From assembly GCA_028287235.1 (NCBI GenBank), contig JAQBQB010000014.1, positions 62,001-126,000 of the forward strand: a stretch of DNA of 64,000 nt, read 5' to 3'. This DNA comes from Gemmatimonadota bacterium (GTDB lineage Bacteria > Gemmatimonadota > Gemmatimonadetes > Gemmatimonadales > Gemmatimonadaceae). The position numbers were made by a program, and so were the translations under genes. This document shows positions 28,527 through 61,822 of this stretch, piece after piece (position 1 is the first letter of the stretch; every line of letters begins with the position of its first letter). The notes beneath the pieces are model-generated. The model saw only the letters and a list, made by a program, of their open reading frames with translations, was not told where the DNA came from and ran no database searches.

Positions 28527-28567
28527 GTGCCCATTCGCATCGCGGACACGACCCAGAACAAGAGTTT

Positions 28568-28619
28568 GTCCGTGCTTTGTCAGTCTTGTCCGTGCGTGTC
28601 CGTGCCAACGCTGTTGCGG
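28568..28619. repeat. Solo arm of the GTCCGTGC palindromic element
   Basis: GTCCGTGC occurs several times in about 50 bases and the run ends GTGTCCGTGCCAACGCTGTT. This closely matches the right arm of the complete element at 37825-38085 (AGTCCGTGCTAACGCTGTTG). No matching left arm or inner hairpin is visible, so it looks like a truncated copy. It fills the gap between two convergent genes. Confidence 0.6.
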
Positions 28620-37799: not shown

Positions 37800-37824
37800 T
37801 CAGGGCTGCAGATTACAACAGCGG

Positions 37825-38085
37825 CAACAGCGTTAGCACGGACTGGACGGACACGGCACGGACACGACACTGAAACTGCGCGACGCCACGTCGCGCAACG
37901 AGCCGTGATTACTTGAGAACCGACGCTCGGGATGCTACTCGTGGCATCCCGAGCGTCGGTTCCAAAGAAATGGTCGTTTGGGCTCGTGGCGATCGGAACT
38001 GTCATTGCACGACCATTGCGCCCTTTCCGTGTCGTGTCCGTGCCGTGTCCGTGCCGTGTCCGTCCAGTCCGTGCTAACGCTGTTG
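37825..38085. repeat. Palindromic element with 42-bp perfect terminal inverted repeats (GTCCGTGC arms)
   Basis: The outer arms 37825-37866 and 38044-38085 are a perfect 42-bp inverted repeat (CAACAGCGTTAGCACGGACT ... inverse at the right end). In the middle is a 19-bp perfect stem (37917-37935 with 37944-37962, GAACCGACGCTCGGGATGC) with an 8-base loop. It is followed by TTCCAAAGAAAT and GGTCGTTTGGGCTCGT. It has no coding frame. The inner hairpin and tail recur in the element at 58341. It exactly fills the gap between the SusD-like gene and the convergent cytochrome/monooxygenase gene, so it may act as a terminator for both. Confidence 0.85.
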
Positions 38086-38092
38086 TCGCCGT

Positions 38093-39454
38093 TTACCGCG
38101 GCTGCACTCTCACCGGCTGCGCTTTCGCTTTCCGCACCGCCACCAAACTGTCGTACTCGGCCTGCTCGAGATACGTGACGTCGATCCAGTTGTGCGCCAT
38201 CTCGTCCACGGTGCGGTCGCCCCAGCCGATCCACTGATTCGGGTCGGGGTTGTTCGGGTTGCCCGCGGTGTTGTCGTGCCATGCGGTGAAGGCGAGCGTG
38301 GTGCCTTTCGGAAAGAGCGGCGCCACGGAGTCGGCGTAGATGTAGTTGACGTGCCAGTTCCACTGGAAGTTCCGTACGGCGCTCACGACTTCCTTGCGGC
38401 CGTCGGGATAGATCGCCTCGAGCGACATGGCGGTGCCGCGCATGTGCATGTGCGGCTGGAAATTCTCGAGCCGCGCCGGCGCCTGGAGCACGTAGAAGTT
38501 CTGCGTGATCGTCTTCTCGTTGGGCGGAATGTCGAGCTCCGAGTTCCGCGCCATGCTGAACATGGTGAGCACGGTGCGGTGCTTGGGGACGAACCCTTTC
38601 GGGTAGAAGTAGACGGCCAGCTCCACCTGGCTGTCCTTGAACTCCTCGCCGATCGCGTGCATGTGGATCTCCCAGCGAATCTTCGAGCCCGGGAGCATCA
38701 GCTTGCCCGCATCTTCGGCGAACACCTGGCCCGTTTTGCCGACGGCCCACTCCATGAACAGCCCGGCGTTGCCCTGATGGTCGTGCGCGGTGCTCGCCAA
38801 GCCCGTGATCTCGGGCTCGTCTTGCAGCAGATAGGCGAGCACGTGGTGGACGATCTTGCGGTCGTTGGCGCGCACCGGCTTCACCTCGATGGCGCGCACC
38901 CAGCGCGGCTCGGTGATTCCCGTTTCGACCGTAGGCCGGTACCACTTGTCCTGCGTGTGCGGCGCGAGCGTGTAGGGCGTCGAGCGAATGACGAGGTCGG
39001 GCTGCGCGCCCAACTTGTCGGCGAGCTGCCAGCGGTTGGGATCGGCGAACGTGCGCGCCGGCGGCAAGTCGGATAGGTCGCCGAGCGGCGCGCCGTCGTC
39101 GACCCAGTGGACGATGGACTGGATCTGCGCGTCGGTGAGGCTGCGGTCGTTCTTGAACGCCTGGATGCCGACGGTCTTGTCGATGTGCCAGGGCGGCATC
39201 AGGCGCGCCGAGACTTTCTGGCGGATCTGCGCCGAGTTTTCTTTCGCGTCCTCATATGAGAGAAGTGACATGGGCGCGATGGAGCCCGGCTGGTGGCACT
39301 CCTGGCATTTCGCCTGAAGGATGGGCGCGACGTCCTTGGCGTACGTCACCGCGCGGTGCGGTGTGGCGGCGACGTGGCGTGGCGCGACGAACAGCGCTGG
39401 GAGCGTAACGACCGCCAGGGCGACCGCGGCGATGGTGGGCGTGCGCAGGCTCAT
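38093..39454 (-). CDS. Cytochrome c / copper type II monooxygenase-like fusion protein
   Basis: 453 residues from ATG 39454, which overlaps the upstream stop as ATGA. Signal peptide about 1-30. The N-terminal heme domain has CQECH (Cys50, Cys53, His54). The C-terminal part resembles the two-domain core of ascorbate-dependent type II copper monooxygenases (PHM/DBH). Candidate copper ligands are His203-His204 (IVHHVLAYL), His264/His266 (WEIHMHAIG), His335/His337 (QPHMHMRGTAM) and Met419 (TVDEMAHNW). Characterised animal members receive electrons from ascorbate. A fused heme could replace that donor here (inference). The substrate is unknown; a non-catalytic copper or electron carrier is the alternative. 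Confidence 0.82.
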   Translation of the reverse strand: MSLRTPTIAAVALAVVTLPALFVAPRHVAATPHRAVTYAKDVAPILQAKCQECHQPGSIAPMSLLSYEDAKENSAQIRQKVSARLMPPWHIDKTVGIQAFKNDRSLTDAQIQSIVHWVDDGAPLGDLSDLPPARTFADPNRWQLADKLGAQPDLVIRSTPYTLAPHTQDKWYRPTVETGITEPRWVRAIEVKPVRANDRKIVHHVLAYLLQDEPEITGLASTAHDHQGNAGLFMEWAVGKTGQVFAEDAGKLMLPGSKIRWEIHMHAIGEEFKDSQVELAVYFYPKGFVPKHRTVLTMFSMARNSELDIPPNEKTITQNFYVLQAPARLENFQPHMHMRGTAMSLEAIYPDGRKEVVSAVRNFQWNWHVNYIYADSVAPLFPKGTTLAFTAWHDNTAGNPNNPDPNQWIGWGDRTVDEMAHNWIDVTYLEQAEYDSLVAVRKAKAQPVRVQPR

Positions 39455-46091: not shown

Positions 46092-46107
46092 GTTGGAGGC
46101 ATCGATA

Positions 46108-46271
46108 ACTGCTTGGCACGGACAAAACCGACACGGCACGGACAAACACGGAAAAGCGTGACGCTCAGGACGCCACTACTCGCTTCCCGAGCGTCCGATC
46201 CCAAGAGAATTCTCGGTCACGTTTCCCCGTGCCATTCCGTGCCTTGTCCGGCCGTGTCCGTGCCAAGCAGT
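46108..46271. repeat. Palindromic element, GTCCGTGC arms, degraded copy
   Basis: Terminal 16-bp perfect inverted repeats ACTGCTTGGCACGGAC (46108-46123) and its inverse (46256-46271). The inner hairpin GACGCTCAGGA / TCCCGAGCGTC (46160-46170, 46185-46195) matches the inner stem of the element at 37825 with one mismatch in the stem. Arms are less regular than at 37825. It occupies the gap between the TonB receptor and the convergent gene ending at 46286. Confidence 0.75.
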
Positions 46272-46285
46272 GTCCCTTTCCAGCG

Positions 46286-47053
46286 TCACTGCGGAGGCGC
46301 GGGACGCTCGTTCCGCTGCGCGCGAGTCCAGATCATGACCAGGCCGCACGACGAGATGGTCCTCGCGTGATATTGAGCCGGAAAGGTTGCCGGGCCGTTA
46401 TAGACCTCGATGCCGTAGATCTCACTCGGGGCGACGTCATCCACGCTGGCGCCGGGATACACGTGCCCGTCGACGCCCACCGCCAGCGTACACCGCGCGC
46501 TCGCTGTGTTCAGCGTCGTTCGGCCGCGGGTCGACGCGATCTGGTCTCCGCGAATCCCCTGCGTGTGAAGCCCGGGCACGCTGCGCAGGAGATCGTGCGT
46601 CTCGAACGGACTGCTCCGTTCGATGTCGCGCCGAGTAATGAAATATCCGCCGGCGTCGTGCGTTCGATGGTAGTCGAACTGCGTCATGTGCGCGGCATCC
46701 GTGAGAGCGCTCGCGTCGATCGTGACCGCCTCGAGCACGGCCGCGCCCGTGGCGTGCAGAATCACGTGCACCTTCAACGTGTCACGGTTCGGCACGTCGA
46801 GCGTTGCCACGGCGGGTTCGAAGCCCAGCCGCCGAACGGTGAACACCGTCGACCCGGGGTGGCCGAGCTTCAATACCGCGAGCCCCGCGGAATCGGCGCG
46901 CCATTGCCACCGCTCGCCGAGTGCAGTGACCAGCGCTCCGACCACGGGCGCATCGGTCTCGTAATCCGTTACGCGAACGCGAACGGTTTGCGCACCGGCG
47001 GCGGCCACGAGCACGAACGGCAAGGCGGCAACGTGCAGGAGAGTGCGGCCCAT
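46286..47053 (-). CDS. Barrel-less TonB receptor plug-like secreted protein
   Basis: 255 residues from ATG 47053 (MGRTLLHVAALPFVLVAAAGA signal; the open frame continues upstream but without protein-like sequence). A carboxypeptidase-regulatory-like domain (about 22-100, VRVTDYETDAPVVGALVTAL) is followed by a plug-like segment (about 105-245): ITRRDIERSSPFETHDLLRS, VPGLHTQGIRG, CTLAVGVDGHVYPGASVDD and EIYGIEVYNGPATFPAQY. The chain ends there, with no barrel. It may be a periplasmic partner or decoy of a TonB receptor, or a natural 'plug-only' family. It is convergent with the full receptor. Confidence 0.72.
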   Translation of the reverse strand: MGRTLLHVAALPFVLVAAAGAQTVRVRVTDYETDAPVVGALVTALGERWQWRADSAGLAVLKLGHPGSTVFTVRRLGFEPAVATLDVPNRDTLKVHVILHATGAAVLEAVTIDASALTDAAHMTQFDYHRTHDAGGYFITRRDIERSSPFETHDLLRSVPGLHTQGIRGDQIASTRGRTTLNTASARCTLAVGVDGHVYPGASVDDVAPSEIYGIEVYNGPATFPAQYHARTISSCGLVMIWTRAQRNERPAPPQ

Positions 47054-47164
47054 CTGATGACGATATGTTGACGTTCTGGAAATGTCCAGAACGCGAGCGG
47101 CGCGGCGACGTCTCGCAACATTAGAGAATCTTAGTGTCAGTCGGTGGCGCGCTTCGTGTCGACC

Positions 47165-47183
47165 TCGTCCGTGCCAAGCAGTT
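47165..47183. repeat. Solo arm end of the GTCCGTGC element
   Basis: CGTCCGTGCCAAGCAGTTG is nearly identical to the right terminus of the element at 46108-46271 (GTCCGTGCCAAGCAGT). No partner arm or inner hairpin is present nearby, so it looks like a leftover terminus. It lies upstream of the secreted-protein gene at 47259. Confidence 0.5.
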
Positions 47184-47258
47184 GTCGCGGAACTCGGTCG
47201 CGTCGTTGAGTATTGGTTCGACACGAATGGGCACCGTCGACCCTTCACTCCGCCGCCA

Positions 47259-47945
47259 ATGTCCTCCAAAACCACCGTGAGCGTGAGCGTGGGCGTGCTG
47301 CTCCCCGTCCTCGCCGCCATGTCGTTCCGCTCCGCGCAGCACCACGTGCCGGCGAAGATCCATCTGACGCTCGCGACGCTGCACGCTGCAGCGCTCACCG
47401 CGCCGCGCGCGGCGACCGATTCGGTGGACGGGCCGTACTTCCTCGTCTCGGTTCTCGGTCCGCGTACGAAGACCGAGACCATCCATCTTCCCGAGTCCGG
47501 CCATCTGCACATTCGCCGCGGCGAGGCGTTGGGCACTCGGCCGCTGGTGGACCTGAGTCTCGAGCCAGGCGACACCGTGCGACTCCTCGTGTCCGTGCTC
47601 GAGGGAGCGAAGGTGCAAGGAACCGACGAAGCCGCGGCGGCGGCCGCGTCCACCGAGGCGCTGTCACAACCCGCCGCGGCGCGGGCGGGCGCGGTCTCGT
47701 CCGCGCTCGCACCGATCACCAAGGACGGCGCGCACTGGCTCGGCTCGGCGACGCTGCTGCTGACGAACGAGCGAGGTACGACGTACTGGCGCGCGCTCGA
47801 ATGCGTGGCGACGTGCAAGGTGTTATCGGGCGCGACCGCCACCGCGTTTGCCGCGCCAAGTGGTGCGCCGGTCGCCGGAGTCGTGGAGCTGTCCGGTGCC
47901 GGCGGGTCGTATCACATGCAGTTGCAGGGCCGACTAGCCCCGTAA
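47259..47945 (+). CDS. Secreted hypothetical protein
   Basis: 228 residues from ATG 47259 (MSSKTTVSVSVGVLLPVLAA signal); upstream in-frame sequence is not protein-like and includes the solo repeat arm. The mature chain is beta-rich, with VDGPYFLVSVLGPRTKTETI, LEPGDTVRLLVSVLEGAK and SATLLLTNERGTTYWRALEC. It has a Cys pair (CVATC) and ends GGSYHMQLQGRLAP. No family is recognised. Its 3' end overlaps the convergent amidase gene by 12 bases. Confidence 0.6.
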   Translation: MSSKTTVSVSVGVLLPVLAAMSFRSAQHHVPAKIHLTLATLHAAALTAPRAATDSVDGPYFLVSVLGPRTKTETIHLPESGHLHIRRGEALGTRPLVDLSLEPGDTVRLLVSVLEGAKVQGTDEAAAAAASTEALSQPAAARAGAVSSALAPITKDGAHWLGSATLLLTNERGTTYWRALECVATCKVLSGATATAFAAPSGAPVAGVVELSGAGGSYHMQLQGRLAP

Positions 47946-49457
47946 CCGGCCGCCCGTCGGGGCGCCGGTCGCCATCGCGAGCTTGGGGCGGAGCTCGCCG
48001 AATCGCGTCGCCTGCTCGAAGGCGTGAGCGAGCCGCAACAAGCTCCACTCGCCGCGGTGAGGACCCACGATCTGCAATCCCACCGGCAGCCCGTTGGCGA
48101 AGCCGCCCGGAACGGAGATCGCCGGGCTGGACATGAAGCTCACGTACCAGCACGATCGCATCCAGTCGATGTACGTGGGCATCGCGACCCCGGCGACGCT
48201 CGTGGGATACGGCGTCGTGATGTCGAACGGCATCACCTGCGTGACCGGCAGGACGAAAAAGTCATGACGCTGAAAAAAGTCATGGGTCTGCTGGTACATG
48301 AGTGCCTGCCGGTTCATGGCGCGCGCGACGTCCGCGCCCGTCATGCGCTCCGCCTCGGCGATCTCCCACCGAATAGTGTCCTTGATCCACTCCGGCCGCT
48401 GGCGCGCGAGCGCCGCGTAGCTTGCGGAGTTGGACAGGTGGCGAAGCGTAGGCAGCGCCTCGTCGACGCCACTAAAGTCGGGCTCGTCCTCCTCGACGAT
48501 GCAGCCCAGCTCTTCGAACACGGCGCGATTGGCGTCGACCACGCGGCGCACGTCAGGCTCGAACGGCAATCCGCCGAGCCCGCGCCACCAAGCCACCCGC
48601 GCGCCGCGAACGCTGCCTTCGAGCGAGGCGGCGAACGCGGACGGATCGGTATCGATCGAGAGCGGGTCGCGCGAGTCGGCGCCGGCGATCGTGCTGAGAA
48701 AGAGCGCCGCGTCGGCGACGGTGCGCGCCATTGGACCGGACACCGAGAACGGCGACCAGGAGCCGTTCGTGACGGGGACGCGTCCCGGTGACGGCCGAAG
48801 GCCAACGACATTGCAGAACGCCGCGGGATTCCGGAGTGACCCGCCGAAGTCGGTGCCGGTCGCAATCGGTGTCATGCCGCACGCGAGGGCGACGGTCGAG
48901 CCGCCGCTGCTTCCGCCGCACGTCTTGGTGAGATCGTACGGATTCCTCGTCGCGCCGAAAATGGTGTTGAACGTCTGCGACCCGGCGCCAAACTCCGGCG
49001 TGTTCGACTTGCCCAACGTGATCGCCCCCGCCGCGCGTGCGCGCGCGACGATGAGAGCGTCCTGCGTCGGCACGTTGTCGCGGTAGAACGGCGAGCCGAA
49101 CGTCGTGCGAATGTCTGCCGTCTCGATGAGATCCTTGTGTACCACGGGCACTCCGTGGAGCGGTCCGATTCGATCCCCGCGCGCGACCGCCTCGTCGGCG
49201 CGCGTCGCATCGGCCAGCGCGCGGTCGGCCACCAGTGTGACGACGGCGTTCACCGAGGGGTTCACGCGTTCGATCCGCGCGAGATGCGCGGCGACGACCT
49301 CGCGCGCCGAGGCCTCGCGTCGACGAATGAGCGATGCGAGCTCGCCGGCGGAATGGTCGCAAAGATCTTCGGCCGCAGACGGCGAGGCTGGAGCTGCGCC
49401 GATCGCCTTGCCACGGAGATGATCGAGCGGCGGGCGGTTCATGTCGTCGTTACTCAT
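47934..49457 (-). CDS. Amidase-signature family amidase (1)
   Basis: 507 residues from ATG 49457; GTG 49466 and ATG 49442 are alternatives. Amidase-signature triad: Lys108 (PVVHKDLIET), cis-Ser in TCGGSSGGS (183/184) and Ser207 in GTDFGGSLRNP. The Gly/Ser loop and downstream [20 protein letters not shown] match the family. No signal peptide, so cytoplasmic. It hydrolyses an amide bond (Asp/Glu-amide or an aryl or aliphatic amide); the precise substrate is not predictable, and GatA is unlikely because no gatB/gatC is seen nearby. It shares its direction with amidase 2, whose stop is 27 bases before this start. Confidence 0.88.
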   Translation of the reverse strand: MSNDDMNRPPLDHLRGKAIGAAPASPSAAEDLCDHSAGELASLIRRREASAREVVAAHLARIERVNPSVNAVVTLVADRALADATRADEAVARGDRIGPLHGVPVVHKDLIETADIRTTFGSPFYRDNVPTQDALIVARARAAGAITLGKSNTPEFGAGSQTFNTIFGATRNPYDLTKTCGGSSGGSTVALACGMTPIATGTDFGGSLRNPAAFCNVVGLRPSPGRVPVTNGSWSPFSVSGPMARTVADAALFLSTIAGADSRDPLSIDTDPSAFAASLEGSVRGARVAWWRGLGGLPFEPDVRRVVDANRAVFEELGCIVEEDEPDFSGVDEALPTLRHLSNSASYAALARQRPEWIKDTIRWEIAEAERMTGADVARAMNRQALMYQQTHDFFQRHDFFVLPVTQVMPFDITTPYPTSVAGVAMPTYIDWMRSCWYVSFMSSPAISVPGGFANGLPVGLQIVGPHRGEWSLLRLAHAFEQATRFGELRPKLAMATGAPTGGRLRG

Positions 49458-49484
49458 CAATGTCACGCGTATCCGTGTGTGCCC

Positions 49485-51065
49485 CTAGCGCGACGCGGGC
49501 GCCACGAACCGCCGCGATTGGCGTTCGTACGCATGCGCCAACGCCAACACTCGCGCGTCCGTCCCCGGCAAGCCGACCACCGACAGATTGAGCGCCGGCA
49601 TGCCATCGGCGCCGATTCCCGCGGGCACCGACACCTCCGGCAGCCCGAGCCAGTTGCCGTAGCCGAGCGCGGTTCCGATCTTCGGCCACGGATCGACGGC
49701 GCGCGGCGCGTTGAAGGGCATGGTCGGATACGCCATCGCCGCGACGCCCGCCGCGCGCATCGAGTCGGCGAGTGACGCCACCACCTCGGCGCGCGAGCGC
49801 GCGAAGGAGCGTCCGGCCGGATCGTCGGTCATCGGCTTGTCGAGCAGGGGCTCGCACTCCTCGTACGTCGCGGGGAGCACGTTGTAAAACTTCTGGTATG
49901 CCGTGTAGCCTCGGCGTAGCGCCGCGCGTGGGTCGTCGGTGCGTCCGGCAAAGTAGCGGAGCAATGCGTTCGCGGTGGGAGCCGGCGAATCGGGATCCAC
50001 CGCGACGTCGTTGCGCGCGCGCGCCGAGGCGGCGAATGCATCGCGATAGTTCAGGCGCGTGACCGCGGGCGTGAAGGGCTCGACCACGGCGCCCGCCGCG
50101 CGCAAGTCGCTCACGGCGCGGTCCCACATGGCGACTGCCTCGGGGGTCATCTGCGCGCGCGGCGCGTGGGCTTCGACGATACCGAGACGCACGCCGGAGA
50201 GCGAGTCGTCGCGCAGAGTGGCGAGTGGCGTGCCGTCCCACGCGGCGGTGAGCGCCAGCGGGTCCGACGCATCGGGGCCGGCGATCGCCGCGAGAAACAG
50301 CGCCGCGTCGGCCACGCTGCGCGCGATCGGACCGTGCGTGTCGAGGTACGGCCACGTTGGAATCACGCCGGTGCGCGGCACGAGACCGAACGTCGGCTTC
50401 ATTCCAACGATGCCGGTGAACTGCGCCGGAATGCGGTTGGAGCCGCCGTCGTCGGTGCCGAGCGCGGCGAACGCCATACCGCCGGCGACGGCGACCGACG
50501 AGCCGGCGCTCGAGCCGCCGGGCGTGCGCGTGCCCGTCGCGTCGTGCGGATTGAGCACCTGCCCCGTGTGGCTGCTCGTGCCGTTGCCGTGAAAGGCGAA
50601 ATCGTCGGCCGCGGTCTTGCCGAGGACGATCGCGCCGGCCGCGCGGAGCCGCGCGATCTCGAGTGCGTCGCGTCGCACGGGCTCGGGAAACAATCGCGCC
50701 CACTCGGCATTGGACGCCGTGGTGGGAAGGCCATTCATGTCGTAGATCGCCTTCGCGAACACCGGGACTCCGTCGAGCGGTCCGCGCATGCGCCCCGCAC
50801 GCCGGCGGTCGTCGGCGGCGCGCGCCTCGGCCAGCGCGGTGTCGGAGAGTGCATCGATGGCGCGCCAACGCGTGCCGTCGCTCCGACAGCGGTCCAGCGC
50901 GCGCGCCGTCACCTCGGCGGCGGTCCACGCCCCGCGAGTCCGGCCCGCCTGATAGGCGGCGATGGTGCCGTCGAGAGGATCGTCCGCGGCGAACGTCCAC
51001 CGCGTATATGGAAGCGCGGCGAGGGCGGCAAGTTGGGCGAGGGCTTCGCGACGTGTTGGTGACAT
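49485..51065 (-). CDS. Amidase-signature family amidase (2), probably exported
   Basis: 526 residues from ATG 51065; the frame runs further upstream but the N-terminus from here is [20 protein letters not shown], a twin-arginine-type leader. Triad: Lys105 (PVFAKAIYD), cis-Ser in PGGSSAGSS (185/186) and Ser209 in GTDDGGSNR. The motif has DDGGS where many members have D-I/F-GGS. Likely exported amidohydrolase of unknown substrate. It and amidase 1 form one transcription unit, and the pair is divergent from the BNR-repeat protein. Confidence 0.85.
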
Positions 51066-51161
51066 TGGCGTTGGAGTAAAATGTCTCGCGGAAGTTCGCG
51101 CTCGTTGGTATGTTTGCGCCACCCCGCCGCCGATCATCCATCACCATTCCGCTCCACATCC

Positions 51162-52280
51162 ATGACCCCCAGCGTCCGAGTCCTCGTCGGTACCCGTAAG
51201 GGTGCCTTCATCCTCACCTCCGACGCCGCGCGCAAATCGTGGGACGTCGCCGGCCCTCACTTTTCGGGCTGGGAGCTCTATCACGTGAAGGGATCGCCCG
51301 TGGATCCCGACCGGCTGTATGCGTCGCAGAGCAACTCCTGGTTCGGCCAGCTGCTGCAGCGGTCCGACGACGGCGGAAAGACCTGGAATCCCGTGGGCAA
51401 CAAGTTCACCTACGACGGCATGCCCGGCACGCATCAGTGGTACGACGGTACGCCGCATCCGTGGGAGTTCAAGCGCGTGTGGCACCTCGAGCCGTCGTTG
51501 AGCGACGCGGACACCGTCTACGCCGGTGTCGAAGACGCGGCGCTGTTTCGTTCGACCGACGGCGGGCAGAATTGGCAAGAGCTGTCCGGCCTGCGCAATC
51601 ACACCACGGGCTCGACGTGGGCGCCGGGCGCCGGCGGGATGTGTCTTCACACGATTCTCATCGACCCCACGAACCACGAGCGCATCTACGTCGCCATCTC
51701 CGCGGCGGGCGCGTTCCGCACCGACGACGGCGGCGCCACGTGGAAGCCGATCAATCACGGTCTGCGCTCGCAGCACATCCCGAATCCCGAGGCCGAGGTG
51801 GGGCACTGCGTGCATCGCATCGCGCAGCACAAGGCGAAGCCGAACACGCTGTTCATGCAGAAGCATTGGGACGTCTTGCGGACGGACGACGCGGGCGATA
51901 ACTGGCACGAGGTGAGCGGCGACCTTCCCACGGACTTCGGCTTCGTCATCGACGTCCACGCGCACGAGCCGGAGACGGTCTACGTGGTGCCGATCAAAAG
52001 CGACTCCGAGCATTTCGTGCACGACGGCAAGCTGCGGGTGTTTCGGAGCCGCACGGGCGGCAACGAATGGGAGCCGCTCGGCAACGGGTTGCCGCAGAAG
52101 GATTGTTACGTGAACGTGCTGCGCGACGCGATGGCGATCGATTCGCTCGACGAGTGCGGCGTGTACTTCGGGACGACCGGCGGCCAGGTGTACGTCTCGC
52201 CCGATGGCGGCGACCACTGGCAGGCGATCGTGCACGACCTGCCCGCGGTGCTCTCGGTCGAGGTGCAAACGTTGGCATGA
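51162..52280 (+). CDS. BNR/Asp-box repeat propeller protein (sialidase-like fold)
   Basis: 372 residues from ATG 51162 ([20 protein letters not shown]; no signal peptide). Five Asp-box repeats are visible: [44 protein letters not shown] and [11 protein letters not shown]. The W-E/P-F and HHTILIDP-like strands fit a beta-propeller. Asp boxes are structural; the Arg triad and Tyr of true sialidases are not evident, so an enzyme assignment is not supported. Its stop overlaps the ATG of the MoaD/ThiS-like gene (ATGA), so the two proteins are made together. Confidence 0.82.
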
Positions 52281-52612
52281 CGCAAGCAGTCGAGGCAGTG
52301 AGCGCGGTGCGGGTCGTCCTTCCGGGGCCGTTGCGTCAGCTCGCGCGAGTCACCGGCGAGCTGGTCGTCGATGCGGCGCCGGGCGAGGGCGGCCGCATTA
52401 CGCAGCGTACGTTGCTCGACGCCGTGGAGGCGCGCTATCCGATGCTGCGCGGAACGATGCGCGATCAGGATACGAAGAAGCGGCGTGCGTACGTGCGGTT
52501 CTATGCATGTCAGGAAGATCTGTCGATGCAGGGACCCGACACGCCGGTGCCGAACGAAGTCGCGGACGGGCGCGAGCCGTTTCTGGTCGTGGGGGCGTTG
52601 GCGGGCGGGTGA
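52277..52612 (+). CDS. MoaD/ThiS-family ubiquitin-like protein
   Basis: 111 residues; ATG 52277 is fixed by the ATGA overlap with the BNR-repeat gene. The beta-grasp pattern is [19 protein letters not shown] ... [20 protein letters not shown] ... [13 protein letters not shown], and it ends [10 protein letters not shown], with the C-terminal Gly-Gly used by MoaD/ThiS-type sulfur carriers. The insertion around 85-100 makes it longer than MoaD (about 80). No MoaE, ThiG or E1-like activator is nearby. Its coupling to a propeller protein suggests a role outside molybdopterin or thiamine synthesis (inference). Confidence 0.75.
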
Positions 52613-52633
52613 GCGTGCGTCGGCTCGAGCCGA

Positions 52634-53716
52634 TCACTGGTACTGGATGTACAGCGGCCGCGGACGAAGCCACAACACTTCGCCGGGCGTGAGCAGCGCG
52701 TCGCGGTGCTTCACGTCGTTGTGGAAGAACAGCTTGATGCCGGTGTACTGCACGGGCTCGAGGTCGATGTAGTCGCGGAAGGACTCGAACTTCATCCACG
52801 GCGGGCCCCAGCCGTCCATGTCCATCACGATCTGCACGCGCGGATCGAGGGTGATCTGCGACGCATTCGAGATCATGGGCTTCGTCCAGCGGTGCACGAC
52901 GAGGACTTTGGGCGGGATCTTCTTGTCGGACACGAGTTGGCGAAGCTGCTCGGACGTCCAGTTGATGTCCTTCGCGTCGAACTGTCCGATCTTTTTCCCC
53001 GGCACCACGCCTTCGTGCGCGTAGTGCATCGCGAACTCCGCGTCCATCGCGAGATGGACGTCGGGGCGCGCGAGGAACGGCAGCAGCCGCGGCAGCTCCT
53101 GCTGCATGGTGCTGTGGCCGACCTGGACGTCGAGGAAGAGGAGTGCATTCTTCCGCTTTGCCCACCCGTACACCTTCTCGATGAGTGCGGTGTCCATGCG
53201 CAGGCGATACATACCGTCCTTGCCCGGCGCGCCCTGCGCGACGACGGCGATCAGTTGCAGTGCGGGCTGCACCGGCGTCGACGGGTCCGCCTGCTGCCAC
53301 TCGCGCACCGCGGTGTCGAGCTTGGCGAGCATCTCGTCGACCGGGTATTCGCCGAGCACGCCCATGCGCTTCGAGAGCGGATTGCCGTAGAAGGCGACGA
53401 TGCGGTGCGCCGGCAGCACCGACTGCGGAAGAGGGGCCGGTAGGGCGGGCCACTTGGCCGCCATGCGCCGGCCGAAGGCCACGGTCGACGCGAACGTGAC
53501 CGAGTCGTGTTTCTTGCGGCTGGCGATGAGGTGTGCCTGTGCGGTGTCCGGCACATCGGTTCTCGCGACGGGCACTGTATCCGAGCGCGTTGCTGCCGTC
53601 TGCGCGGGACCCGGCGCGGGCGTGCCTGCGGCCGGCGTGGCGTCGTGAGCGGCGGTGCACGACGTCAGAACGGCGACTACGCCGACTGCCGCGGCGAATC
53701 GAAAGAACGTTGACAA
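52634..53716 (-). CDS. Lipoprotein of unknown function
   Basis: 360 residues from TTG 53716. The start is supported by AAGGAG nine bases upstream; no ATG serves the signal peptide. Lipobox VLTSC (Cys20) follows FRFAAAVGVVAV. After a Pro/Ala/Thr linker the mature part has alternating strands and helices: RIVAFYGNPLSKRMGVLGEY, ALQLIAVVAQGAPGKDGMYR, FLDVQVGHSTMQQELPRLLP and VQIVMDMDGWGPPWMKFESF. The order resembles a TIM-barrel-like fold but no catalytic motif is certain. Convergent with the MoaD-like gene and downstream of mpl in the same direction. Confidence 0.7.
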   Translation of the reverse strand: MSTFFRFAAAVGVVAVLTSCTAAHDATPAAGTPAPGPAQTAATRSDTVPVARTDVPDTAQAHLIASRKKHDSVTFASTVAFGRRMAAKWPALPAPLPQSVLPAHRIVAFYGNPLSKRMGVLGEYPVDEMLAKLDTAVREWQQADPSTPVQPALQLIAVVAQGAPGKDGMYRLRMDTALIEKVYGWAKRKNALLFLDVQVGHSTMQQELPRLLPFLARPDVHLAMDAEFAMHYAHEGVVPGKKIGQFDAKDINWTSEQLRQLVSDKKIPPKVLVVHRWTKPMISNASQITLDPRVQIVMDMDGWGPPWMKFESFRDYIDLEPVQYTGIKLFFHNDVKHRDALLTPGEVLWLRPRPLYIQYQ

Positions 53717-53768
53717 TGAATGAGCTCCTTGTGACTGCAGCGAACGCGGGCCACGGAACGTGTCCGCG

Positions 53769-55247
53769 TCAGGCGCGGTTACGCCCGAGTCGCTCCATCA
53801 AACTAGACACGAATCCACCGAACGCCCCGTTGCTCATCACCAGCACGAGATCGCCCGGCCGCGCCTCGGCGGCCACCAAACCCACGAGCTCCCCCACGTC
53901 GCGCGATCCGTGCGCCGTCACGCCCGTCGTTTCGAGATCCGCTACGATCTCGCTCACGTCGAGCTGGTGATCGATCGGCACTTTGTCGTGCGGCTCCGGC
54001 ACCTTGAGGAAGACCTGCGCCGCGTCGCGCAGCGCGTTCACGTACGCGTACTGGTGGATGTCGCGTCGGCTCGTATTGGAGCGCGGCTCGAACACCGCGA
54101 TCACGCGCCGGCCGGCGTACCGCTCGCGAATCCCCTCGATCGTCTCCTGCACCGCGGTGGGATGGTGCGCGAAGTCGTCGATCACCAACACGCCGCCCAC
54201 TTCGCCCTTCACCTCCTGCCGCCGCTTCACGCCCTTGAACGACGCGAAGCCCCTCGCCACGACCTCGGATGAGAGCCCGAGCGTCATGGCCACGGCGAAC
54301 ACGCCGACCGCGTTTTCGACGTTGTGCCGTCCCGACATGGGCAGCAGGAGCTTCGTTACAGAATTGTCATCACGCCGCACGATGTCGAAGCTCGCCCCTT
54401 CGGCGCCGAAGGTCACGTTGCGGGCGCGGTAGTCGGCGTCGGACTCGCCGGCGTAGGTGATGACGCGTCCCGCGCAGTGGGCGCGCGCGATCCGCTCGGC
54501 ATTGGGATACGTGCTGCACACCACGAGCGTGCCGTCGGCCGGAATCGTCTCGGCGAAGCGCGCGTAGGCCGATTCGTAGTGCTCCATGTCGCGATAGATG
54601 TCGGCATGGTCGAACTCGATGCTCGTCAGGATCGCCGTGCGCGCGCGGTAGTGCAGGAACTTGGGGCCCTTGTCGAAGTAGGCGGTGTCGTACTCGTCTC
54701 CCTCGACGACGACGTACGGTCCCTCGCCGAAGCGGAAGTTGGATTCGGCGTTGATCGTCACACCGCCCACGAGGAACGTGGGGTCGGCGTCGGCGACGAC
54801 GAGCACGTGCGACAGCAGCGCCGACGTCGTCGTCTTGCCGTGCGTGCCCGCAACCACGATGCTGTGGCGGTCGTCGAGGATCAGCGACCCGAACGCCGCA
54901 GGGAAGCTCATCTGCGGCATGCCTCGTTCGCGCACCGCGGTCGCCTCCGGGTTGTCGCGCCGGATCACGTTGCCGATGACGACGAGGTCCGGCCGCGCGC
55001 GGTCGAGGTTGTCGGCCGAGTACGGGGTCATGGTCTCGACGCCCCAGCGGACGAGCATGTCGCTCATGGGCGGGTAGACGTTCTGGTCGCTCCCGGTGAC
55101 CTCGTAGCCGGCGGCCCCGAGGAGGCCCGCGAAGGAGCCCATTCCCGTTCCACCGACCCCCACGAGGTGGATGCGCCGGACCGAGCCGGGGGAAACGCGG
55201 GTCAGAACGTTGCCGGCGTTCTGCGGCGGGGTGGGGGGCTCATTCAT
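53769..55247 (-). CDS. mpl: Murein peptide ligase Mpl (UDP-MurNAc:tripeptide ligase)
   Basis: 492 residues from ATG 55247. Mur-ligase layout: N-terminal Rossmann domain with VGVGGTGMGSFAGLL, ATP loop GTHGKTTTS (134-142), central domain VVVEGDEYDTAYFDKGPKFL, LPMSGRHNVENAVGV, and a C-terminal domain with DDFAHHPTAVQETI, FEPRSNTSRR and MSNGAFGG. The last two motifs separate Mpl from MurC. It recycles peptidoglycan by joining L-Ala-gamma-D-Glu-meso-DAP to UDP-MurNAc. The frame is open upstream to 55379, but the family N-terminus fits 55247. No other cell-wall genes are adjacent, so it is a stand-alone recycling enzyme here. Confidence 0.92.
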   Translation of the reverse strand: MNEPPTPPQNAGNVLTRVSPGSVRRIHLVGVGGTGMGSFAGLLGAAGYEVTGSDQNVYPPMSDMLVRWGVETMTPYSADNLDRARPDLVVIGNVIRRDNPEATAVRERGMPQMSFPAAFGSLILDDRHSIVVAGTHGKTTTSALLSHVLVVADADPTFLVGGVTINAESNFRFGEGPYVVVEGDEYDTAYFDKGPKFLHYRARTAILTSIEFDHADIYRDMEHYESAYARFAETIPADGTLVVCSTYPNAERIARAHCAGRVITYAGESDADYRARNVTFGAEGASFDIVRRDDNSVTKLLLPMSGRHNVENAVGVFAVAMTLGLSSEVVARGFASFKGVKRRQEVKGEVGGVLVIDDFAHHPTAVQETIEGIRERYAGRRVIAVFEPRSNTSRRDIHQYAYVNALRDAAQVFLKVPEPHDKVPIDHQLDVSEIVADLETTGVTAHGSRDVGELVGLVAAEARPGDLVLVMSNGAFGGFVSSLMERLGRNRA

Positions 55248-55405
55248 GACCGTAGACAAGGGCAAGGAACGAACCCATCCGATGTGTCCGAATCTTCTCG
55301 ATTCCTGTCGAAATCCCGCATTCTCGTTCGACGTAGAAGCGAGGCCCCCTTCCGGGCCCCGTTCGGATGCCCGCAACATAGCAACCCAACTTCCAGGACG
55401 CCGCC

Positions 55406-55729
55406 ATGTACCTCATCCGCGAAATCATGTACTGCAAGCCGGGCAAAGTGCGCCCACTCGTCGAGAAATTCCTCGCGATGTCCGCACTTGGCGCACGGGT
55501 GGGCATGCCGAAGATGCGCATCATGACCGACTTTTGCGCCGATCGCTACTGGACGGTCGTGTCCGAGATGGAGGTGCCGAGCCTGCAGGAGTTCGAGACG
55601 ATGATGTCGGGCGGGGGCGCACAGGGGTCGAAGGAGGACATGAAGGAGATGGAGAAGATCATGAGCGGATACCACGATCTGGTGGACCATGGCAAGCGGG
55701 AGATCTTCAAGATCGAAGCGGCGTCGTGA
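55406..55729 (+). CDS. Dimeric alpha/beta-barrel-like small protein
   Basis: 107 residues from ATG 55406, preceded by AGGA at good spacing. The pattern is strand-helix-strand-strand-helix: MYLIREIMYCKPGKVRPLVE, KMRIMTDFCADRYWTVVSEM, EFETMMSGGG and an acidic helix (KEDMKEMEKIMSGYHDLVDH) ending in KREIFKIEA. This resembles NIPSNAP or antibiotic-monooxygenase-type dimeric ferredoxin-like folds, but no catalytic residue can be named. Divergent from mpl across 160 bases; its TGA overlaps the next short gene's ATG by one base. Confidence 0.62.
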   Translation: MYLIREIMYCKPGKVRPLVEKFLAMSALGARVGMPKMRIMTDFCADRYWTVVSEMEVPSLQEFETMMSGGGAQGSKEDMKEMEKIMSGYHDLVDHGKREIFKIEAAS

Positions 55730-55896
55730 TGGGGTGGCCCCGCGTGCATCCAGCGGCGTGCAACGATTCGACGGTCTTTTTCGAGTTCCAGGTGGCTGAG
55801 CGGGCACGCTGGATCGCCGACACGACACTGGCGGTGCATCCGATACCGAACGTACGCAATCCCGCGAACCTCGTGCAAACGGTAGTCGGACGGTAA
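55729..55896 (+). CDS. Short hypothetical gene (55 residues)
   Basis: The ATG at 55729 shares one base with the stop of the preceding gene (TGATG), a layout typical of coupled translation. The protein reads MGWPRVHPAACNDSTVFFEF, then QVAERARWIADTTLAVHPIP and a tail to GR. It has no signal or recognised domain. Real expression is not proved: the length is short and the antisense strand is also open. Confidence 0.35.
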   Translation: MGWPRVHPAACNDSTVFFEFQVAERARWIADTTLAVHPIPNVRNPANLVQTVVGR

Positions 55897-55950
55897 GCTT
55901 GAGCGCGGCGGCGCGTGAGAAGTTCGCGTTCTCTAAACGGGAAGCCAACG

Positions 55951-56112
55951 ATGCAACGACAATTCTCGCCGAACGCGATACTCTGGAGCCTGGTGGCCGC
56001 GATTCGCCGGCGGCCGTGGTGGCAGCGGGAGCTCTTGCACGCGGTCTGGATCGTGGGTGTCGTGGGCTCCGTGTGGCTTTGGATCTGGAGCTTCGACTGT
56101 CCGATGTGTTGA
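55951..56112 (+). CDS. Small single-pass membrane protein
   Basis: 53 residues from ATG 55951 with GGAAG upstream. Basic, Trp-rich N-terminal half (SLVAAIRRRPWWQRELLHAV), then one membrane helix IVGVVGSVWLWIWSF and the C-terminus DCPMC. The basic stretch before the helix predicts an N-in orientation. The C-x-x-x-C-like end is notable for a small protein. No family is recognised. Confidence 0.5.
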   Translation: MQRQFSPNAILWSLVAAIRRRPWWQRELLHAVWIVGVVGSVWLWIWSFDCPMC

Positions 56113-56203
56113 GGTGGTGTGTTCCATTGCTCGCACTATGATTCGGGGCCATGGTTCATCCGGCCGCACCACACTGCCCACTCATGAACGGAGAGCATCA
56201 ATC

Positions 56204-57343
56204 GTGAACTCGCGCCGCCAATTCCTCGTTCGCGCGCCACTCGGTCTCGCCGGCGTGCTCGCCGCGTGCAAGAAGGGCGAAGCGCGCGGCCTGAGCGCCG
56301 ACGCGTCTGGCGCAGGCGCCGCACCCGCCGGCACGGCGATGCCGCAGCAGGCCGCGACACCGCTCGCCGCGATCCCCGCGAACGCGCCGACGCTGAATTA
56401 CATCCCGAAGCACGAGGAGCTCAGCTACACCTTCGGTGGCGCCGCGCCGCGGCAGCGCATCAAACCGGGCACTCGAATCGTGACGTGGACCGAAGACTGC
56501 TTCGACGGCGTGGTGAAGACCGCCGCCGACCTCCCGTCGAAGAAGATGGCCCCTGGCCACGACAATCCGCAGACTGGCCCCTTCTATGTGGAAGGCGCCG
56601 AGCCTGGCGACACGGTCGCGATTCACATCCTGAAGCTCGAGCCGGCGCGGTCGTACGCCGTCTCGTCGTTCGGCCCGGGTTTCGGCGCGCTCGTGGGCAA
56701 CAACGAGACGGCGATGCTCGGCCCCGATTTCCCCGAGACGACGTGGCGCTACGACGTCGACACGAAGCGCAACGTCGCGCGCTCATCGACGCGCAACGGC
56801 TCACACAGTTGGGAGGTTCCACTCGCGCCCTTTCTCGGGTGCCTTGGCGTCGCTCCGGCGGGCGGCGAGGTTCGGACGACGATCGTGCCCGGAAATTTCG
56901 GCGGCAACATGGACTGCCCCGAGGTTCGCGCCGGCAACACGGTCTATCTCGGCGTGAACGTGCCGGGTGCGCTGCTGTCGTTCGGGGACGGCCACTACGC
57001 CATGGGTGAGGGCGAGATCATGGGTGCCGCGATCGAGGGCGCGATGAACGTCGAAGTCTACGTGGAACTGATCAAGAAGTTGGCGACGCCCGTTCCGCGC
57101 ATCGAGAACGCGAGTCAGGTGATGTTCGTCGGGTCCGGACGTCCGCTTGAGGACGCGGCGCGTGTGGCGTTCAAGTCGATGGTCAATTGGTCGCGCGCGC
57201 GAACGAAGCTTTCCGAGATGGATGCCTATCAATTCGTCGCGCAGAATACAAAGGCGTCGATCATCCAGCTCGTCGATCCCGAGTACACGGTGTTGGTCAG
57301 CATGGAAAAACGACGACTGCCGGTGTCGGGGGCTGGCCATTAG
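56204..57343 (+). CDS. Acetamidase/formamidase family protein
   Basis: 379 residues. Start chosen at GTG 56204, with GGAGAG eight bases upstream. It gives a twin-arginine/lipoprotein-like leader (MNSRRQFLVRAPLGLAGVLA, then ACKKG) with Cys at the cleavage site. The body has the family marks TWTEDCFDGVV, GHDNPQTGPFYVEGAEPGD, PGNFGGNMDCPEVRAGNTVY and SFGDGHYAMGEGE, the last with the metal-site His/Glu region. It hydrolyses small amides such as formamide or acetamide in known members; export makes a broader amide substrate possible. The palindromic element at 57336 starts at its stop codon. Confidence 0.86.
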   Translation: MNSRRQFLVRAPLGLAGVLAACKKGEARGLSADASGAGAAPAGTAMPQQAATPLAAIPANAPTLNYIPKHEELSYTFGGAAPRQRIKPGTRIVTWTEDCFDGVVKTAADLPSKKMAPGHDNPQTGPFYVEGAEPGDTVAIHILKLEPARSYAVSSFGPGFGALVGNNETAMLGPDFPETTWRYDVDTKRNVARSSTRNGSHSWEVPLAPFLGCLGVAPAGGEVRTTIVPGNFGGNMDCPEVRAGNTVYLGVNVPGALLSFGDGHYAMGEGEIMGAAIEGAMNVEVYVELIKKLATPVPRIENASQVMFVGSGRPLEDAARVAFKSMVNWSRARTKLSEMDAYQFVAQNTKASIIQLVDPEYTVLVSMEKRRLPVSGAGH

Positions 57344-57506
57344 GTCGGGACGATTGCCGGGGGTTCGCGGATGACGCTGAAGCTGCCGCGAATCAAAACG
57401 GATCGCTCCATGCGCGGAGGCGTCACTCCACATGGAGAGATCCGTCGTGATCGAAGATGTTTTCCGCGTGATCCGCGAACCCCGGCAATCATCCCGACCT
57501 AGTGGC
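57336..57506. repeat. Palindromic element, GGTCGGGAC arms
   Basis: The left end GCCATTAGGTCGGGACGATT (57336 on) and the right end, read in reverse complement (GCCACTAGGTCGGGATGATT), form arms of about 40 bases ending in GTTCGCGGATGACGC-like sequence. Inside, GGATCGCTCCATG pairs with CATGGAGAGATCC, so the whole 171 bases fold as one long imperfect hairpin. About 80 bases of the left half recur with few changes as the reverse complement of the right half of the element at 58341. The left arm includes the stop codon of the acetamidase gene. No coding frame is inside. Confidence 0.8.
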
Positions 57507-57564
57507 TAGGTCCGCCACGGCGAGCGAAGCTGGCTGCGCCGTTACCGAGGCATGAGGCGTGCTT

Positions 57565-57595
57565 GAATCCTCCGGCAGACTGCAGAGGAGGATTC
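57565..57595 (+). promoter_or_regulatory. Hairpin sequestering a ribosome binding site
   Basis: GAATCCTCC (57565-57573) and GGAGGATTC (57587-57595) are a perfect 9-bp inverted repeat with a 13-base loop. The right strand is the ribosome binding site, with GGAGG eight bases before the ATG at 57600. The folded mRNA would therefore hide the SD sequence. Possible uses are a thermometer-type or protein-modulated translation switch; the palindrome could also be fortuitous. No ligand-riboswitch core is visible. Confidence 0.65.
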
Positions 57596-57599
57596 TCAT

Positions 57600-58310
57600 A
57601 TGCACCAGAACGAGAGAGGAGGAACCGTCGGCGCGGTTCTGCTCGCAATTTGCTTGACGGCGGCGCCCGCTGTCGTCGTGAATGCACAGACGGGATCGGC
57701 GAGCTCGCCGACAGGTACAGCGACCGGCACAGCGACCGGCACACAGACAGGCACCGCCGGAGCGCCGAGGTCTACAGGAATGACCGGGACCAGGAACGTG
57801 ACTGGAACCGGAACGCCGGGCGCGGGCGCGACTTATGGTGCACAAGGAACCGTAACGGGCGCACAGAGCGCCGGCACGCAGGCCGCACCGGGTGGAGTGG
57901 TCGGAACGCCGGGACAAACGGGACAAACAGGAGTCACGGGGACGCCCAGCACGAACGGAATGAATCAACCCGGAGCAGCAAGTGGAAGCGCCGGCACGGT
58001 GCCGGGCGGTTCAGGCGCCGCGGCGGGCGCAGCCGGTGATATCAGCGCCGGCACCAGCAGCCCAGGCGGGGCAGCAGTCGGGAGTAGCTCGGGTGACAGT
58101 ACAGCGAATGGCGGGGGAGCCGGTGGCGGCACGCAGAGCGGGACGTACGATCAACAGTCGGCGGGCGGTGGCAGAGGAGGGAGCTCGCGCGTGGGCCTGC
58201 TCGGATTGCTCGGGCTCGTGGGCTTGTTCGGTCTGCGTCGCCAGAAACCCTCGGATGTGAGTAGCACCAGCGCCACGACCGGCGCGCCGGAGATCGTGAG
58301 CCGGCGCTAG
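57600..58310 (+). CDS. Gly/Thr-rich secreted protein with WGxxGxxG-like C-terminal segment
   Basis: 236 residues with a strong SD (GAGGAGG). Signal peptide MHQNERGGTVGAVLLAICLT, cleaved near NAQ. Residues 31-195 are low-complexity Gly/Thr/Ser/Ala (TGTATGTATGTQTGTAG and similar), then SRVGLLGLLGLVGLFGLRRQ (197-215), a hydrophobic Leu/Gly helix followed by basic residues, as in WGxxGxxG/CTERM-type protein-sorting signals but without the Trp. It is probably anchored at the surface by its C-terminus, the rest forming an extended or disordered chain. No adjacent sorting enzyme is seen. Confidence 0.68.
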   Translation: MHQNERGGTVGAVLLAICLTAAPAVVVNAQTGSASSPTGTATGTATGTQTGTAGAPRSTGMTGTRNVTGTGTPGAGATYGAQGTVTGAQSAGTQAAPGGVVGTPGQTGQTGVTGTPSTNGMNQPGAASGSAGTVPGGSGAAAGAAGDISAGTSSPGGAAVGSSSGDSTANGGGAGGGTQSGTYDQQSAGGGRGGSSRVGLLGLLGLVGLFGLRRQKPSDVSSTSATTGAPEIVSRR

Positions 58311-58340
58311 AAAATATTTGGGCGTGGCGCGCGTACCGAT

Positions 58341-58632
58341 GCCATTAGGTCGGGACGAGCGCTGGGGGTTCGCGGATGACGCGGAAACCGCGAATCACGA
58401 CGGATCTTTCCATGTGGAGTGATGCCTCCGCGCGCAACGTGCCCGGACGAACGCTCTTATTGGGAACCGACGCTCGGGAGACCTCTAGTAGCATCCCGAG
58501 CGTCTGTTCCAAAGAAAATGTCGTCCGGGCTCGTTGCGCATGGAGCTGTCCCCGCGCATGGAGCGATCCGTTTTGATCCGCGGCAGCTTCCGCGTCATCC
58601 GCGAATCCCAGCAATCGTCCCGACCTATTGGC
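58341..58632. repeat. Composite palindromic element: GGTCGGGAC arms around a nested hairpin
   Basis: Outer arms of about 44 bases (GCCATTAGGTCGGGACGAGC on the left; reverse complement on the right GCCAATAGGTCGGGACGATT). The centre carries a nested stem GGAACCGACGCTCGGGA / TCCCGAGCGTCTGTTCC (58463-58479, 58494-58510; one mismatch) and the tail TTCCAAAGAAAATGTCGT. The stem and tail also occur inside the element at 37825, which has different outer arms. The stretch lies between convergent genes (58310 and 58690) and has no coding frame. Confidence 0.85.
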
Positions 58633-58689
58633 GTCGTTCCGCGACGCCCTCTCGCCTCCAGATCGCCGCCTCCGTCGCGGCGGGTTATG

Positions 58690-60741
<2,052 letters not shown>

Positions 60742-60748
60742 CGCGCGC

Positions 60749-61822
60749 CTACTGCGGGAAGATCGACGGAAACACGACGTTCGTCGTGAAGATGCAGCGA
60801 TCGTTGTGCCCGCACTCGGGAACGATGATCGCCTTGTGCTTCGCGCCCAGCGTCTCGGTGACGTACTTGAAGAACGCTTCGCCGCGCGCACGCCGCGTGG
60901 GACCCTGAGCCATGGCGCCCGCCGACGAATCGAATCCGCCCAGCGGAAGCACATCGACCTGGCCCAACAAATAGGTCGTCGGACGCTCGACGAGCTGTTT
61001 GATCAGCTGCTCGTTCGTGATCTGGGCGGTGTAGCCAGGGCGATTCTCGAGCCCCGCGGGCCACTTGTTGAAGTTCGGAGCCTTCGCGGCATCGAACGTT
61101 CCGTAGGTGAACCGCGTGTGCAGGCTGTCGCCCGTTGGGCCCAGCGCTTCCTTGTCCGCGGTGGCGGGGTCGGCATCGCCCGTGGGCAGCGGCCGCACGG
61201 CGGCCGGCCACGCATAGCTCGACGGATTGGCCACGACATAGCTGATGGCAACACCGAGCGTGCCATGCAGCTTGTTTGCCATCTCGTAGCGCGTCGCGAA
61301 CTGGCCGCCGGCCGAATGCCCCGCGACGACGATCTTCGTGAGGTTCGGGAAATTCTTCTTGTCGGCGAGCTTGCGCAGGATCTCGTCCATGAAGTCGAAC
61401 GCCGAGAGCGTCGGGTTCGACGTGGACATCCCGCCGGAGCGCCAGCTGTCACCGCCGTTCGGCCAGACGACTTCGTTGGCCTGCGGCTTGTCGTTGGCGG
61501 CAATCAGGTGTGGGGATATGACCACGGTGTTCTCGAGCGCGCCCGCGAGAAAGGCCGCCGCCATCGCCGTCTCGAAATAGTGGTCGGCGTTACGCCCGGT
61601 GCCGTGGACCATGACGAGCGCGCGCGTCACGTTCGAGTTGGGCGCGTCGAGCGAATAGCTGGCATAGACCATCGACCGCGCCGGTCCGCCGCCGAGCGCG
61701 ACCCAGCGCTCGCAGGCCGCGGTGGGCGTGGTGCACGGTGCAGTGCGCCCCTGACCGAGGACGGGCGAAGATGTGAACGATGCCAGTGCAGCGACGACGG
61801 CGACGAGAAGGGGTGTTCGCAT
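60749..61822 (-). CDS. Secreted alpha/beta hydrolase
   Basis: 357 residues, signal peptide MRTPLLVAVVAALASFTSS. The alpha/beta-hydrolase nucleophile Ser170 lies in VAGHSAGGQF, with oxyanion-type MVHGTGRNAD near 72-80. Near the end, IIVPECGHNDRC supplies the likely catalytic His. Several Cys (CTTPTAACERW and CGHNDRC) may form disulfides. Substrate unknown; an ester or amide is expected. Its stop is seven bases before the quinoprotein start, so the hydrolase may release an alcohol that the quinoprotein oxidises (inference). About 160 bases upstream are without a supported gene. Confidence 0.8.
   Translation of the reverse strand: MRTPLLVAVVAALASFTSSPVLGQGRTAPCTTPTAACERWVALGGGPARSMVYASYSLDAPNSNVTRALVMVHGTGRNADHYFETAMAAAFLAGALENTVVISPHLIAANDKPQANEVVWPNGGDSWRSGGMSTSNPTLSAFDFMDEILRKLADKKNFPNLTKIVVAGHSAGGQFATRYEMANKLHGTLGVAISYVVANPSSYAWPAAVRPLPTGDADPATADKEALGPTGDSLHTRFTYGTFDAAKAPNFNKWPAGLENRPGYTAQITNEQLIKQLVERPTTYLLGQVDVLPLGGFDSSAGAMAQGPTRRARGEAFFKYVTETLGAKHKAIIVPECGHNDRCIFTTNVVFPSIFPQ

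Follow-up and report, generated by a model that had tools for sequence, protein, structure and literature searches.

One inner palindromic module within several arm types in interspersed repeats of Gemmatimonadaceae

Introduction

A 64-kb window of a Gemmatimonadaceae genome (the window is the whole stretch of DNA that was analyzed) contains two neighboring palindromic elements, which are designated here as e1 and e2. A preliminary description placed them at 57336-57506 and 58341-58632, respectively, noted that they share arms but not the same core, and pointed out that the middle of e2 recurs in a differently armed element at 37825. The locus raises the question of what kind of repeat has one middle inside different ends, and of how the two parts came to be combined. 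In this study we delimited the elements in the window, searched for copies in the same genome (designated as G000; a draft assembly of 31 contigs) and in other species of the family, and compared their sites, folding, and position relative to genes.

Results

Elements in the window and the missing core of e1

The following features were delimited (e3 is the element at 37825).

57333..57509, minus strand: e1, A-type arms, inner module apparently deleted, inverted relative to e2
58326..58648, plus strand: e2, A-type arms with inner module; palindrome limits in the preliminary description 58341-58632
58430..58541, plus strand: inner module of e2, with a CGCAACGnGCC-type middle layer and a central hairpin; module model, 117 bits
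58457..58516, no strand assigned: central hairpin of e2 with the TTCCAAAGAA tail; inverted repeat
37817..38093, plus strand: e3, C-type arms (ACAGCGTTAGCACGGACTG...), the same inner module at 37891-37994, 95 bits
46108..46271, minus strand: e4, C-type arms, degenerate inner module at 46126-46229, 30 bits, E 1e-4
28543..28617, no strand assigned: C-type arm remnant with convergent genes on both sides

The coordinates and sequences of e1 and e2 agree with the preliminary description, and the sharing of arms was confirmed, the two elements standing in opposite orientation. The match of about 80 bases reported between their halves extends over 82 nt of the left half of e1 and the reverse complement of the right half of e2 (93%, E 4e-26), and an additional 40 nt match at 95%. 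The kinship of the e2 and e3 centers likewise held: they are alike over 71 nt (85%, E 1e-9), while the arms of the two show no match there. In the e2 module, the middle layer consists of CGCAACGnGCCCGGACGAAC / TCGTCCGGGCTCGTTGCG and the central hairpin of ...ACCGACGCTCGGGA...TCCCGAGCGTCTGTTCCAAAGAAAA.

The suggestion that e1 has another core was not borne out, the core being absent instead. The piece absent from e1 corresponds to 58434-58557 of e2, and since CCGCGC is common to both ends of this piece, e1 is apparently an inverted e2-like copy, the center of which was lost by deletion between these short repeats. The left end of e1 overlaps the stop codon of the gene at 56204-57343 (ORF scoring by our own script), and e4 lies between convergent genes. 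Between e1 and e2, positions 57600-58310 encode a Gly/Thr-rich, secreted-looking protein (by eye) with a hydrophobic Gly/Leu stretch near the C-terminus followed by Arg residues; a surface protein that carries a sorting tail is a possible identity.

One module within several arm types in the same genome

Searches of the own genome with e2, e3, the e3 core, and e1 located at least about 40 places; the stretches around 40 places were taken and their palindromes delimited. The elements are layered (nested) palindromes, mostly about 250-330 bp in size, with an inner module of 112 nt. A covariance model of the module was built from 25 rows (24 from A- or B-type elements and one from a C-type element), with L143, which has an atypical module, omitted, and this model found the module at at least 34 own-genome places, namely 32 of the 40 stretches (L122 is e4), e2, and e3. 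No significant module was found at L121, L124, L127, L141, L142, L146, L152, L154, and e1.

By eye, the arms of these at least 34 places are of type A at 5, B at 23, C at 5, and D at 1. A and B (the latter being CGGGACGATTCCGTC...CGGATGACGCGGAAA) are a single arm, the outer end of which has diverged, and C and D are distinct from it, so that e2-type arms surround the module at 28 places, the arms of the 37825 element at 5, and a third type at 1. The preliminary description was right about the shared inner module; its GGTCGGGAC arm is a subtype (A) of the commoner arm B. Its central claim, one inner module inside several unrelated arm types, holds for A/B, C, and D here and for others in further species. 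We looked for the opposite pattern, in which every arm type has its own unrelated core, and it was absent: nine module-bearing places lie outside the training rows of the model, including four C-type elements and the sole D-type one. As in BIMEs, palindromic units are joined here to different motifs from one copy to another. Among the own-genome copies examined, a core without any arm was not seen, and three copies (L125, L135, and L139) are one-sided or half-eroded. L125, L139, L150, and L155 have, in place of the CGGGCTCGTTGCG layer, a short hairpin (TCCCGGCTCGTTGGGCCGGGA or a near variant) with A/T tails and a terminator-like appearance.

The constancy of the module and the variation of the arms by species would also be expected if the module alone were mobile and inserted into the center of palindromic target repeats that were already in place, these being the arms; insertion sequences that target REPs are known (PMC1525189). 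We consider this very doubtful. Of the 40 near-matches to the B tip in the own genome, all but L337 and extra tips beside L153 and L155 coincide with elements of this family, and nearly every B tip is part of an element that either bears the module or has visibly suffered a deletion. In addition, the coreless copies e1 and L146 retain pieces of the inner flank (comparison by eye) and look like deletions rather than empty targets. At L347 (near C31:94734) and L153 (near C30:36807), extra outer-tip copies adjoin complete elements, which suggests insertion beside or into older copies.

The module in other species of the family

The module model, run over 179 Gemmatimonadaceae genomes with the stricter filters that apply above 40 genomes, matched 12: all 6 of the own genus, 3 of a second genus (g20), 1 of g28, and, weakly, 2 of g48. 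The weak matches in G148 (L259, E 0.005) and G147 (L258, E 0.008) were not counted as secure. The same module stands within other arms in eight genomes: arms with CGCAGAG words in G001, GGCACGGGCACGG in G003, CGCGGAATCCGCGG plus CGCAGAG in G004, CCGAATACGGTTGGATTGG or TTCGTTCAATTCGGATC in G005, and CACGGATT words in G068 with related words in G069 and G024; G032 is the eighth. At L242 of G068, two arm types are stacked. Of the other copies, L239 and L240 were read as L158 and L161, which are identical in place, and L241 was read in part. Among genome contig records, the core pattern was found in one, JAICJQ010000095.1.

Two further arrangements were seen. At the weakly matching L259 (G148:C11, about 54999-55176; E 0.005) the order of the layers is reversed, with the CAACGAGCC/CGCGCAACGAGCC layer outside and CACAGAG/CACCGAG words inside, and at each of L229 and L230 of G005 a pair of similar elements stands in tandem at a spacing of about 230-300 bp.

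In a tree of the modules (66 rows and only 111 columns, with L143 and several weak modules omitted), the seven G001 modules are ungrouped among the G000 modules despite their own arm type, with 7 changes for 7 rows compared with a shuffled mean of 6.7, although the few firm forks alone (11 of 63) force only one change for G001; the C modules are scattered among the B and G001 modules. A single family can comprise palindromic repeats whose ends differ from species to species.

Orthologous sites

The flanks of 43 own loci were compared with those of copies in other species, and both flanks were common at one locus only. This gap follows a presumed dnaB-like gene and precedes a presumed radA-like gene, both named from recognition of their sequences. 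Among the nine relatives compared at this gap, G001 has the module with CGCAGAG arms where G000 has it with B arms. At the same gap, the palindromes of G003, G004, G068, and G069 are armed in the manner of the respective species and contain no significant module (14.9 bits, E 0.2 in G003). A different word array is found in G024, the gap measures 19-21 nt in G002 and G032, and G005 has other DNA. Either this dnaB-radA gap is a hot spot, or it has been occupied since long ago.

An occupied gap of this kind would be expected if the copies were old and gene conversion or fold-back template switching had rewritten their arms in place to the type of each species (concerted evolution). The module in different arms in G000 and G001 favors this, as do the palindromes of G003, G004, G068, and G069, whose word arms resemble others in the respective genome. 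However, independent insertion at a hot spot fits too, and the degenerate side of the module faces dnaB in G000 and radA in G001 (by eye). Furthermore, the module was absent at 26 of 26 orthologous sites of seven own copies in five same-genus genomes, G001-G005 (sole hit 11 bits, E 0.5). Since these sites are without the module, most of the compared own copies look recent and lineage-specific, and rewriting of old copies in place is distinctly unlikely. In the alignments the elements as a whole are missing at the 26 sites, which speaks also against insertion of the module alone into waiting arms. Some of these orthologous sites hold ordinary short hairpins or other palindromes. In G003, L320, L324, and L331 carry another palindromic repeat, TCATCCCGAGCG...CGCTCGGGATGA, at gene ends, at sites that have nested elements in the own genome.

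Position relative to genes and predicted folding

Genes were called by our own codon-score script, with exact starts uncertain. For 38 elements from the 43 places (L135, which overlaps a gene call, and the single arms or fragments L141, L142, L146, and L154 were omitted), the neighboring genes are convergent at 17, tandem at 20, and divergent at 1, compared with 8 divergent among the 24 window gaps longer than 50 nt (Fisher p 0.0014). A gene 3' end is present on at least one side of 37 of the 38 copies, at a distance of 36 nt or less in 32 of the 37 (median 15 nt). REPs lie likewise relative to genes (PMC3733652). In the own genome, the inserts at L119 and L130 are each preceded by a short terminator-like hairpin.

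Such a placement at gene 3' ends and rarely between divergent genes, together with the strong folding predicted for the elements, might point to bidirectional transcription terminators or 3' stabilizers of mRNA kept by selection on RNA folding, and the short TCCCGGCTCG...GCCGGGA hairpin with A/T tails at L125, L139, L150, and L155 is terminator-like. Nevertheless, the numbers of G-U and A-C mismatches in tandem-context elements (100:92) reveal no wobble excess on the transcribed strand, the module shows no covariation (RNAalifold covariation term +0.23), and terminator-like sites are not in excess, with 9 against 8.8 expected in 45500-61500 and one of them inside e4. Moreover, the corresponding sites of sister species are empty or hold no more than short hairpins or palindromes of other kinds. 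No Rfam model matched at gathering score, the best being hairpin-like microRNA models far below it.

The two halves of an element were also compared in the 25 complete A/B elements, L143 included. Halves of one element are 0.757 alike and halves of different elements 0.739. In the 15 nt behind the tip, after orientation, the values are 0.877 within and 0.737 between elements (p 0.0001). For the outer arm of the B elements alone (20 elements), they are 0.893 and 0.838 in the 15 nt behind the tip (p 0.0005), and 0.860 and 0.811 (p 0.006); the tip itself (16 nt) does not differ significantly in B alone (p 0.25). Elsewhere in the elements, common descent accounts for roughly the similarity observed, and in the inner spacer the halves of one element are less similar than those of different elements. 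Covariation within elements is therefore located mainly in the outer part of the arms, where it could reflect end pairing or repair, and this too tells against selection on the folded RNA. Because similarity outside the outer arm is at the level of descent, without wobble excess or module covariation, the elements are not read as selected RNA structures, and the terminator or stabilizer role is unlikely. An exchange of halves between copies, which a first comparison seemed to show, was rejected: after orientation, the pattern is inverted insertion of asymmetric elements.

Search for mobility machinery

Tips were located in 23 of 25 elements, and in these no target-site duplication of fixed length was found, the best direct repeats being 3-7 nt at inconsistent offsets, and no pair of tips at kilobase spacing, as in an autonomous relative, was present in the 31-contig draft. 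Y1 transposases (PF01797) gave 0 matches in the own genome, while the control was positive in 5 of 14 genomes. A Y1 gene is present in 3 of 11 relatives (G001, G032, and G147), flanked by other repeats, none of which resembles these elements. An origin from RAYT or TIRYT systems was rejected on these grounds, the own genome having no Y1 gene and the Y1 genes of the relatives having unrelated flanks. The repeats at two of these Y1 loci, L367 (G032) and L369 (G001), contain GGGGTCAGA, which is similar to GGGGWSAS, a motif that has been reported for TIRYT genes. Inverted pairs of short REP hairpins with a GTAG tag were also sought, and the alignments contain no such conserved end tag (by eye). 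Carriage by a phage or virus was considered, and no match was found.

Discussion

The many copies, the empty orthologous sites, the placement at gene 3' ends, and the occurrence of the module across genera with varying arms lead us to read the elements as mobile repeats: they probably constitute a Gemmatimonadaceae family of non-autonomous, nested-palindrome mosaic interspersed repeats, which spread in each genome behind genes and reassort their arms and module. The whole unit, arms and module together, would move into short gaps behind genes, presumably mobilized in trans by a putative enzyme. Recombination between copies, or template switching from one copy to another, may have brought arms and module into new combinations, by which each species would have come to amplify its own arm type, and coreless copies would be later deletion products. 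End-recognizing transposases are expected to leave conserved ends, and the interspecies conservation of these elements is strongest in the middle, which counts against this explanation, as do the negative searches in the draft genome for a fixed-length target-site duplication, an autonomous relative, and a Y1 transposase. A more tentative view, to which we give limited though real weight, is that the inner module is an old unit and the arms are periodically rewritten in each lineage to quasi-periodic words (CGGATGACG, CACGGACA, CGCAGAG, CACGGATT...), both in place and by new insertions, through fold-back template switching or a putative enzyme that recognizes the center.

The preliminary description regarded a swap of the inner module as unlike the behavior of ordinary REP or MITE families. 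That the elements are foreign to known repeat families is not supported. The BOX elements of Streptococcus suis, which are composite interspersed repeats, surround the same boxB modules with either of two different end pairs, boxA/C or boxE/F (PMC3049150), and the same source treats BIMEs, NIMEs, and Correia elements as composite. By architecture, which alone was compared, S. suis BOX is the closest precedent that we can name for the same inner module with different ends; it differs in its linear A-B-C order, whereas here the palindromes are concentric and the arms differ by species. BIMEs and REPINs with their RAYTs are also palindromic, extragenic, mostly at convergent or tandem genes, and composite (portions of PMC3733652 and PMC3116915), but the present elements are about 300 bp long with a conserved center in a genome without a Y1 transposase. 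REPIN spacers show compensatory changes, and here there are almost none inside the elements. The TIR families of TIRYTs resemble our elements as long palindromic repeats from joined unrelated stem-loops, their 'double inverted repeats' joining degenerate REPs to such stem-loops (TIRYT sections of PMC3733652); unlike them, the repeats that flank the Y1 genes of G001, G032, and G147 are different from these elements.

MITEs (Correia/NEMIS, RUP, and ERIC) share the small size, non-autonomy, terminal inverted repeats, and strong folding, and the elements also have MITE-like high copy number, lack of a transposase gene, and empty orthologous sites; they differ in lacking a fixed target-site duplication, in being GC-rich, and in having the middle most conserved. 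Taken together, the elements are not REPINs, are BIME-like in composition, and are MITEs in part. Systematic catalogues of stem-loop families exist, as parts of PMC2267715 indicate, and a search of the open-licence literature, including searches by sequence words, found no relevant paper on this family or on such repeats in Gemmatimonadetes.

Reassortment of module and arms itself has a precedent in S. suis BOX. It is by their conserved ends that most miniature repeats are defined. In the present elements, at least three genera share the center, and the ends change from species to species; if this is true, either the machinery recognizes something other than the termini, or recombination exchanges the arms.
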